Shown: positions 5,061 to 12,761 of the stretch, piece by piece
How the letters are laid out: every line of letters starts with the position of its first letter
How positions within the stretch are numbered: position 1 is the first letter of the stretch
Position numbers and translations under genes: made by a program
The notes under the pieces: model-generated
Databases searched by the model: none
The model's input: only the letters and a program-made list of their open reading frames with translations
Told to the model about the DNA's origin: nothing
DNA from: Candidatus Desantisbacteria bacterium CG1_02_49_89
GTDB taxonomy: Bacteria; Desantisbacteria; UBA1551
DNA: 12,761 bases
Direction: 5' to 3'
Assembly (NCBI GenBank): GCA_001871075.1
Contig: MNUP01000041.1
Span: forward strand, 1 to 12,761

Positions 5061-5065
5061 GGAAT

Positions 5066-5111
5066 CAGGGCTAAAGCCCTGAGTTACCCCGAAGGGATCC
5101 CTTTGGGACAA
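5066..5111. repeat. Palindrome CAGGGC-TAAA-GCCCTG plus GGATCCCTTTGGGACAA word
   Basis: The stem CAGGGC (5066-5071) and GCCCTG (5076-5081) enclose a TAAA loop, a core like the CGCAGGC/GCCTGCG hairpin at 9372-9389 in reverse. Right after it, 5089-5111 carries a 23-nt word containing GGATCCCTTTGGGACAA. The same 23 nt with one mismatch occurs at 9448-9470 inside the second PorV-like gene. Confidence 0.75.
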
Positions 5112-9303: not shown

Positions 9304-9358
9304 GCGTGTCCCGCCCAGCAAGATTGGCGGGCAGGCGCTGTGTCAACGTGTCAACGCA
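9304..9358. repeat. CGTGTCAA array interrupted by a CCCGCC/GGCGGG palindrome
   Basis: GCGTGTC at 9304-9310 runs into a palindrome with stem CCCGCC (9310-9315) and GGCGGG (9326-9331). After GCAGG the word array resumes as GTGTCAACGTGTCAACG (9340-9356). The array is the same word as at 1872-1906. The layout looks like one repeat inserted into another. Confidence 0.65.
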
Positions 9359-9371
9359 ACTGCAAGGTAGC

Positions 9372-9389
9372 CGCAGGCTTTAGCCTGCG
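9372..9389. repeat. CGCAGGC-TTTA-GCCTGCG hairpin next to the ribosome binding site
   Basis: A perfect 7-bp stem with a TTTA loop. The base of its 3' arm abuts GAGG (9389-9392), the likely Shine-Dalgarno of the gene starting at 9402. It resembles the CAGGGC-TAAA-GCCCTG hairpin at 5066-5081 read on the other strand. It could modulate access to the ribosome binding site, but the simplest reading is a dispersed palindrome. Confidence 0.5.
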
Positions 9390-9401
9390 AGGATGTAAAG
9401 T

Positions 9402-10421
9402 ATGAAAAAGAAGATTTTAATAATCTTGTTTTTAACTTTTAACTTTTCCGAATGGATCCCTTTGGGACAACTTTTAACTTTTCCGCCCACCATGGGTATT
9501 GGTGGGCGAGACCTCGCCCAGATGAATATCTGGGCGGGTAGCTGCGCCTGGGCGCTCAGCCCGGGAAGCAGCGGGGTGAATTTCCTAAGGCTCGCGGTGG
9601 GCGCAAGGGCCGCGGGAATGGGCGAAGCATTCACTGCGGTCGCGGATGACGCAAGCGCGGTCGGCTGGAACCCGGCAGGGCTGACACAGATCGAAGACAA
9701 GCAGATATTTTTTGTCCACGGATTGCTGCCTTTATTTGTAAACCAGGATCTAGTAAGCTACGCGCAATCCTGGGACAAATATTCGTTTGGGTTCAGCGCG
9801 AACTTTCTTTCAAGCGGCAAAATGTACAGGACCACGGAGAACGCTTCGGGGGATTACACCGGGACTAACGGGCAGTTTGAAAGCGTTGATTCCGCGTTCA
9901 TGTTTTCCTTCGCGCAAAGAACGGGAGGTTTCGGGTTCGGCGCCACTCTTAAGATATTACGCAGCGTTATAGATAGTTATTCCGGAAATGCCATAGGGGT
10001 GGATGTGGGTTTCCTTTACAGGTTTGGGAACAACAAAAATTTCAAGCTGGCAGCGGTCTTGCAGAATTTCGGCTCCAAGATGAAGTATTCAAATGACGTG
10101 CAGGACGGCCTGCCCATGGGCATGCGCCTGGGCGGTTCTTACGCGGTCGGCACTGAACTGGGAAAGATGAACCTGAGTTTTGATCTGAATTTGCCTATTG
10201 ATCATTCCGCGGGAGTGCATCTGGGGTTAGAATACTGGATACAGGACATTGCCGCGATAAGGATAGGGTATAAAACTGACAGGATAAACGATCTGGACGC
10301 TCTTTCCGGGCTCTGCTGCGGCGGCGGCGTGAAGTTTGAGAACTTCGAGGTGGATTACGCCTACGTTCCTTACGGGGACTTGGGCCAAACGCATCGCATC
10401 TCCATACTTGCTAGCTTCTAA
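9402..10421 (+). CDS. PorV/PorQ-family (UPF0164-like) outer-membrane protein with repeat-invaded signal peptide
   Basis: 339 residues. The mature region begins around residue 55 with GSSGVNFLRLAVGARAAGMGEAFTAVADDASAVGWNPAGL, whose central GARAAGMGEA...DDASAVGWNPAGL is the classic PorV/UPF0164 signature. Barrel-like strands follow, and the chain ends in HRISILASF with a C-terminal Phe as in many outer-membrane barrels. Known PorV acts in type IX secretion; the role of homologues in other phyla is not established. The N-terminus is odd: a normal hydrophobic start MKKKILIILFLTFNFS is separated from the expected cleavage region GSCAWALSPG by 29 residues encoded by palindromic intergenic repeats (9450-9536). 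Without them the signal peptide would be of ordinary length. GAGG at 9389-9392 is the likely Shine-Dalgarno for ATG 9402. It directly follows a FlgD-tailed secreted protein, like the pair at 398-2839. Confidence 0.78.
   Translation: MKKKILIILFLTFNFSEWIPLGQLLTFPPTMGIGGRDLAQMNIWAGSCAWALSPGSSGVNFLRLAVGARAAGMGEAFTAVADDASAVGWNPAGLTQIEDKQIFFVHGLLPLFVNQDLVSYAQSWDKYSFGFSANFLSSGKMYRTTENASGDYTGTNGQFESVDSAFMFSFAQRTGGFGFGATLKILRSVIDSYSGNAIGVDVGFLYRFGNNKNFKLAAVLQNFGSKMKYSNDVQDGLPMGMRLGGSYAVGTELGKMNLSFDLNLPIDHSAGVHLGLEYWIQDIAAIRIGYKTDRINDLDALSGLCCGGGVKFENFEVDYAYVPYGDLGQTHRISILASF
9450..9536 (+). repeat. 87-nt palindrome-rich segment inserted in frame in the signal peptide region
   Basis: Its left part shares the word GGATCCCTTTGGGACAA with 5095-5111. 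Next comes a second copy (9469-9485) of the 17-nt sequence at 9434-9450 (AACTTTTAACTTTTCCG). Two perfect hairpins follow: GCCCACC (9485-9491) with GGTGGGC (9501-9507), and CGCCCAGAT (9515-9523) with ATCTGGGCG (9528-9536). The length is 29 codons with no stop, so the host frame is kept. Confidence 0.7.
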
Positions 10422-12537: not shown

Positions 12538-12761
12538 GATTAGGCGAGCGCCAAGCTAAGCTGTGGCTAATCCAGTCAGTTGCAAATAACTGACCCAGAT
12601 AAGATTTGGCAGTCTGGTAGCAAGAAGCCAGAAAGGAAGGAGCAATCTTTCTTTTCTAAGCGGCTTGACAAAGTCCGCCTCGGGCGGGCGATGCAAAAGA
12701 CGGGTTGCAACGAAAGTGAATCCAGGTGTAGCTTCGTAAACATTAAAGGGTGAGGAGGGCG
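12538..12761 (+). ncRNA. Structured RNA, probably 5' part of a group II intron (runs off window)
   Basis: From 12480 on there is no open frame, but from 12538 one perfect helix follows another: GATTAG/CTAATC (12538-12543 with 12567-12572), GTCAGTT/AACTGAC (12575-12581 with 12588-12594), TCTGG/CCAGA (12613-12617 with 12628-12632), AGAAAG/CTTTCT as an alternative, GTCCGCC/GGCGGGC (12673-12679 with 12683-12689), TGCAA/TTGCA (12692-12696 with 12705-12709) and ACGAA/TTCGT (12710-12714 with 12733-12737). Purine-rich joiners such as AAAGTGAATCCAGG and AAAGGGTGAGGAGGGCG resemble domain I of bacterial group II introns as I remember them. The exact 5' boundary is unclear, and GTG at 12536-12538 may be the first intron bases. 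An intron-encoded reverse transcriptase would lie beyond 12761. Another large structured RNA cannot be excluded. Confidence 0.5.

Follow-up and report, generated by a model that had tools for sequence, protein, structure and literature searches.

In-frame palindromic repeats in the signal peptide of a PorV-like gene of Candidatus Desantisbacteria bacterium CG1_02_49_89

Introduction

How does a run of hairpin-forming repeats come to lie inside the signal peptide of an apparently intact gene, and is it translated there? The question is raised by a PorV-like gene in a 12,761-nt contig (the window) of Candidatus Desantisbacteria bacterium CG1_02_49_89, whose assembly is metagenome-like and comprises 2.48 Mb in 150 contigs. 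The original prediction, made from the letters of the window, held that 87 nt of palindromic repeat DNA had been inserted in frame between a normal hydrophobic start and the cleavage region, in the manner of the Rickettsia palindromic elements (RPEs). RPEs and the palindromic elements of Wolbachia were described by Ogata et al. (2000, 2002, 2005), as reviewed in PMC10969869 and PMC3767692. Here we describe the block, its copies elsewhere in the genome and in other genomes, and the explanations that may account for it.

Results

A repeat block read in frame within the signal peptide

The open reading frame at 9402–10421 (+) is intact and encodes a 339-aa product, which in profile searches matched PF19572 (E=1.3e-7) and PF03687 (E=1.7e-10) and exceeded the family-profile cut-off for PorV / UPF0164 outer-membrane proteins, in agreement with the earlier naming of the gene. 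The N-terminus reads MKKKILIILFLTFNFS-EWIPLGQLLTFPPTMGIGGRDLAQMNIWA-GSCAWALSPG, and dispersed repeats at 9430–9537 are read through in it, as predicted. The block consists of a 7-nt array, a palindrome (element A), the array again and a double hairpin (element B), all in frame and on the forward strand (+). The first array, approximately 2.6 units of TTTTAAC at 9430–9447, encodes FLTFNF of the signal-peptide core. Element A at 9447–9470 copies the palindrome TCCCAAAGGGATCCCTTTGGGA imperfectly (GAATGG variant), with CAA added, and encodes SEWIPLGQ; the 23-nt word at 9448–9470 occurs again at 5089–5111 with one mismatch, as had been noticed, while 200 shuffles of the window gave 0 matches. The array 17-mer at 9434–9450 is exactly duplicated at 9469–9485 (AACTTTTAACTTTTCCG). 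Element B at 9483–9537 contains the two predicted hairpins, at 9484–9508 and 9515–9536, which are joined by the core GGGCGAGACCTCGCCC (9504–9519). Both were confirmed with 9-bp stems, and their single-strand DNA fold is -22 kcal/mol (z = -7.7), compared with z = -6.5 for the whole block. Ordinary sequence, GSCAWALSPGSSGVNFLRLAVGARAAGMG, picks up after 9537, and from there on the gene is stop-free with the frame kept. The predicted translation of the block includes the peptide EWIPLGQLLTFPPTMGIGGR. Because a plain TTTTAAC array in the host-gene frame can be read for only five to six codons before a stop, the array and the palindrome must be read jointly in this gene. Over 52 of 52 nt, the signal peptide is identical to that of an unrelated exported-protein gene on another contig (C31, L002).

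Two parts of the original prediction stood only in part. MKKKILIILF is indeed a signal-peptide start, but the core LTFNF is itself repeat-derived, because the repeat unit already starts at 9430, with the 7-nt array. Removal of 87 nt is one possible parse; others would take out 21 nt (A by itself), 35 nt (A with the array) or 55 nt (B), and the exact 87-nt boundary of the insert is unproven.

The genome holds approximately 29 paralogous matches to the host gene, and the best homologue in a genome of the same order shows 37% identity. Among the relatives and paralogues whose N-termini were read, after placement by tblastn, none carries the residues of A or B, and the conserved FLKxGVGAR motif is reached without them. 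The aligned region starts approximately 20–35 residues past the likeliest start in most homologues, versus 46 in the host gene; for the few homologues with a longer distance, the start was probably picked too far upstream. In the host gene, the added residues most likely make for a longer signal peptide.

Further repeats lie on the forward strand (+) of the window. The second copy of A, at 5087–5111, is intergenic and adjoins a hairpin of another family, E (TCAGGGCTAAAGCCCTGAGTTA, 5065–5086). A REP-like repeat, GTAG followed by the hairpin CCGCAGGCTTTAGCCTGCG, occupies 9367–9389 just 5' of the host gene, and the second PorV-like gene of the window has a 7-nt array at 1956–1993, within its signal peptide (ILTCNLSLVTCHC). 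A hairpin module, CCCGCCCAGCAAGATTGGCGGG, was also observed at 9310–9331; the peptide VPPSKIGGQAQ, found in a metallo-beta-lactamase-like protein (C83) and at the end of a protein on C14, fits this module. A group II intron domain lies at 12577–12715, near the contig end (Rfam RF02003, 66 bits).

Copies of A and B across the genome

A search with an A-type pattern, allowing at most 3 mismatches, returned 85 forward and 79 reverse matches, most sites being counted twice because A is palindromic. The B core gave 70 forward and 63 reverse matches at 1 mismatch (up to 133), and the reversed-pattern control gave 0 for both elements. From the matches listed and the stretches around them (420 kb), we catalogued at least 72 copies of A and at least 109 of B at a minimum of 167 sites. 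Both elements are mostly intergenic and often lie inside arrays of 7–10 nt units, which differ between sites.

A is a 22-nt palindrome that, among the matches listed, is stop-free in six frames in 95% of copies versus 20% when shuffled. The variant present in the window, GGATCCATTCGG, has five copies among the matches listed; all of them lie in an AACTTTT-type array, and because they share this one array type, array and palindrome appear to travel together. B has the form CCGCCC-stem-loop-GGGCGAGGTCTCGCCC-stem-loop-GGGCGG and is usually 43–56 nt long, with a maximum of 74. Its outer stem pairs are constant, and pairs 6–9 vary with compensation: pair 6 is CG, AT, TA or GC, and pairing is kept there in 39 of 44 distinct left hairpins among the matches listed. 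An IS-derived MITE would be recognized by the terminal inverted repeats of a resident IS and by a target duplication of fixed length. Direct repeats flanking the element (8 of 8 nt) were present in a minority of the matches listed, 13/58 for A and 13/70 for B, where shuffling of the flanks gave 1.8 and 1.3. They follow the local arrays, and this signal is partly one of insertion into tandem arrays.

Some matches stand apart. An A-like match lies in a PorV paralogue (C139:7150). B-like elements with longer stems adjoin sequence resembling the 5' half of serine/leucine tRNA (C81:19413, C81:19620 and C142:1110-1196), and at locus L225 of another genome, G362, a B copy lies against a tRNA-like stretch. 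Two candidate intragenic elements, C7:28546 (5 mismatches) and C50:16385, were judged to be chance matches.

Genes carrying the elements in frame

Among the matches listed, at least 18 genes carry A, B or module D in frame, and all 18 copies are stop-free. In eight of these genes the element lies in the signal peptide, namely the host gene and genes on C31, C81, C46, C115, C130, C80 and C104. Only seven of the eight are firm, because the C115 gene may start downstream of its elements. The remaining genes carry the element internally and encode DnaE (C25), a B12-radical-SAM protein (C30), D-Ala-D-Ala ligase (Ddl, C59), HisF (C76), lipoamide dehydrogenase (Lpd, C85), an aconitase-family protein (C23), a ROK kinase (C96, module D) and three proteins named by eye, which are glycosidase-like (C38), QueE-like with two copies of B (C105) and fumarase-like (C47). 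Three more copies form C-terminal tails (C50, C22 and C38:1514), and four same-strand cases, seen as neighbouring ORFs, could be split genes. In the ROK-family kinase (C96:10271-10393, L269), module D sits between TGCAAAA and ACGACGC 7-nt arrays, all in frame. An ORF of approximately 1300 aa on C80 (L004, L153) combines a signal-peptide copy of B with a tandem pair of A copies located internally.

HisF offers the cleanest case of in-frame insertion, with a clean empty site. Its insert of approximately 60 residues, made of module D, B and array, is exactly absent from the same-order orthologue (80% identical), which reads AIDSKRTGKRK/WEVYI with no gap at the junction, and is also missing from other relatives and from solved structures. 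The DnaE insert lies between aligned blocks and is missing from the aligned homologues. Those of Ddl and the aconitase-family protein likewise fall between aligned blocks of homologues, including solved structures. The predicted likeness to RPEs, with other sequences, was supported by the high copy number, the 52 nt shared with an unrelated signal peptide, at least 17 further in-frame genes, the absence of the residues from the N-termini read in relatives and paralogues, and the empty site in HisF.

The elements are depleted in genes overall, with 17 A- or B-bearing genes per 167 sites versus a coding share of approximately 70% in an A/B-poor sample. Those that do lie in genes favour signal peptides (8 of 18 genes, p ~2e-8), with signal peptides called by a heuristic rule and assumed to make up 3% of coding sequence.

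Seven-nucleotide arrays in signal peptides

A period-7 array was found in 4/29 signal-peptide-like N-termini, compared with 2/348 internal gene segments (p = 4e-4) and 13/442 intergenic windows (p = 0.016), in a sample of 164 kb drawn from 20 contigs that hold no listed match to A or B and were picked regardless of signal peptides. The same enrichment is seen in the sample around the elements, which is itself biased. Several paralogous PorV-like genes have an array of their own, encoding ALHLTPYTLH, ALHLTLYTLH or TLHLTLYTLH. Comparable to these 7-nt arrays are the short tandem repeats and small dispersed repeats of cyanobacteria.

Occurrence in other genomes

Among 386 genomes, A was found in five and B in two, the host included. 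The genome nearest to the host is of the same order and the others share only the domain, a poor fit to the well-sampled Rickettsiales. Neither element occurs in the one same-order genome, and vertical inheritance within the order was rejected on this absence. The exact 25-nt A is present in assemblies of Ratteibacteria (three loci), Ignavibacteriae, Sphingobacteriales and Patescibacteria type. A is therefore patchy across phyla, through transfer, binning error or shared origin. In genome G345, which is distant from the host, five A-like palindromes follow one another approximately 100–260 nt apart (C1:4172251-4172942, L218).

Discussion

Relation to known repeats

A and B share with RPEs, as published descriptions give these, the character of dispersed, high-copy palindromic hairpin repeats that are intergenic and also inserted in frame, at tolerated positions, in unrelated genes, conserved enzymes included. 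The DnaE of R. conorii also carries an element (PMC3733652). In contrast to RPEs, given as approximately 100–150 nt (PMC3767692), A has 22 nt and B 43–74 nt, so that the length expected of an RPE is not reached. On the same descriptions, A and B also differ from RPEs in their 7-nt arrays, their use of several frames and both strands and their strong signal-peptide bias, and probably in lineage and sequence, RPE-1 to RPE-10 being elements of Rickettsiales.

Intragenic REPs and REPINs (PMC3733652, PMC3116915) resemble A and B in being small stem-loops, often dimers and in some cases within ORFs, in genomes that encode RAYT genes, and the compensatory hairpin change expected of REPs is found in B. 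Unlike the GTAG and CGTC families of REP/REPIN, A and B have no constant tetranucleotide tag at the stem foot among the flanks listed. A RAYT gene flanked by its own repeat was found for family E (C23:1824, C23:3850) and not for A or B. It should be noted that REP-like repeats do occur here, since family E and the 9367–9389 hairpin bear GTAA/GTAG. Enterobacterial RU-1/RU-2 (ERIC-type) repeats fused to ORFs are 127–168 nt long and isolated cases, whereas at least eight signal peptides are involved here; RU-2 in YPO1552 is the single earlier instance in which a signal peptide is made up in part by a small mobile repeat (PMC2759123). The TAACTGA heptamer repeats of Beggiatoaceae and cyanobacteria (PMC4679880) share intergenic 7-nt arrays, distant phyla and A/T-rich units that are coding in some frames, but the arrays of the present genome have many unit types, host palindromes and form signal-peptide cores. 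A search among open-licence papers returned none describing A, B or the signal-peptide bias. A and B work like RPEs and intragenic REPs and, on the features tested, are members of neither.

A possible route of spread

The genome contains ten Y1-transposase matches. On C23 there are two 163-aa frames, each closely copying the other; the one that was scanned passes the cut-off for REP-associated tyrosine transposases (NF047646) and resembles TnpA-REP 4er8. Both genes (C23:1824-2150, L208; C23:3850-4176, L207) lie among tandem arrays of family E, a REPIN-like dimer GTAACTCAAACCTTCAGGTTTGA...TCAGGGCTTTAGCCCTGAGTTAC that adjoins A at 5065–5111 and B at many sites. Some hairpins at these loci have a further palindrome within the loop.

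We consider it likely that the block is a stack of mobile REP-like repeats that landed in the gene and are translated as part of it, the repeats being copied by Y1 transposases. A and B would be REP-like units copied by Y1 (HUH) tyrosine transposases, which recognize hairpins and cut single strands. Copying by such enzymes is suggested because RAYT-type enzymes are encoded, two of them amid arrays of the sister family E, which adjoins A and B elsewhere. None of the 8 Y1 loci examined has A or B flanking the transposase gene, so their spread by a RAYT-type enzyme is a plausible guess; the narrower proposal that they are canonical REPs of the resident RAYT was ruled out by tag and position. Insertion would not be targeted to genes, and intragenic copies would survive only if they disturb neither frame nor function. 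The openness of A in six frames and the length-changing 7-nt arrays would improve the odds of survival in genes, and the arrays may change length until the frame fits. Signal peptides may gather elements by way of T/C-rich 7-nt arrays: these code for hydrophobic residues, are able to act as the core and may in turn host A and B.

Alternative explanations

If the true start lay downstream, the block would be untranslated 5' intergenic repeat DNA. The ATGs 9492 and 9522 are available, N-terminal REP annotations in many cases probably concern extragenic copies (PMC3733652), and a TTG past the elements could serve in the C115 gene. However, both ATGs lie inside element B, have no AGGA-like upstream motif and would leave neither a charged n-region nor a hydrophobic core in a family that is exported. 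ATG 9402, by contrast, is preceded at 8 nt by a Shine-Dalgarno-like AGGA (9390–9393, +, read from the sequence) and opens the textbook lysine-rich n-region MKKKILIILF, followed by the hydrophobic core. A later start, named at the outset as a possible refutation, would also leave unexplained the same peptide within the C31 signal peptide and the internal copies in HisF, Ddl, Lpd, DnaE and others, and we regard it as quite improbable. That the block formed on the spot, through slippage and the local rise of palindromes without any mobility, is slightly less credible still. Slippage does lengthen and shorten the 7-nt arrays, which vary by site, but the 52 nt shared exactly by two unrelated loci, one A variant found five times in one array type, about a hundred copies of fixed A and B cores and the exact 25-nt A in other phyla all argue against it.

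A different doubt concerns the protein. A recent insertion may have broken the export signal, so that the gene is disabled and being lost. The AxA cleavage motif (CAWA) lies approximately 34 residues past the hydrophobic core, a distance too long for signal peptidase I, so that decay is conceivable, and redundant paralogues would permit it. Yet the frame is kept, the remainder is intact and stop-free, and elements also lie in frame in otherwise well-conserved enzymes such as HisF and Ddl, so that decay seems unlikely, if the most serious of these alternatives. The protein might instead be normal, the elements being removed after transcription or bypassed by the ribosome in an intron- or byp-like manner. 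Strong hairpins and conserved enzymes hit without apparent loss would fit this, but all 18 listed copies are in frame and stop-free, which would be needless if they were skipped; the four possible split genes stand outside this count. This explanation is the least probable of all, and we retain the reading of the block as translated mobile REP-like repeats.

Implications

Protein-coding palindromes are best known from Rickettsiales, and REP cases elsewhere are scattered. The present genome is apparently a second, independent and dense case, with conserved enzymes affected, an empty site in a relative and a preference for signal peptides. It opens to test the spread of small palindromes without an enzyme of their own, here beside a RAYT system of the same genome that has a sister repeat, as well as the bacterial gain of export signals out of non-coding repeats. 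Annotators are warned that repeats may be the source of residues peculiar to one lineage in such genes. More tentatively, and with doubt prevailing, this lineage may rebuild its signal peptides from intergenic-type DNA, in which the arrays would supply the core and the palindromes ride in, and the spreading of repeats would thus be a source of export signals.
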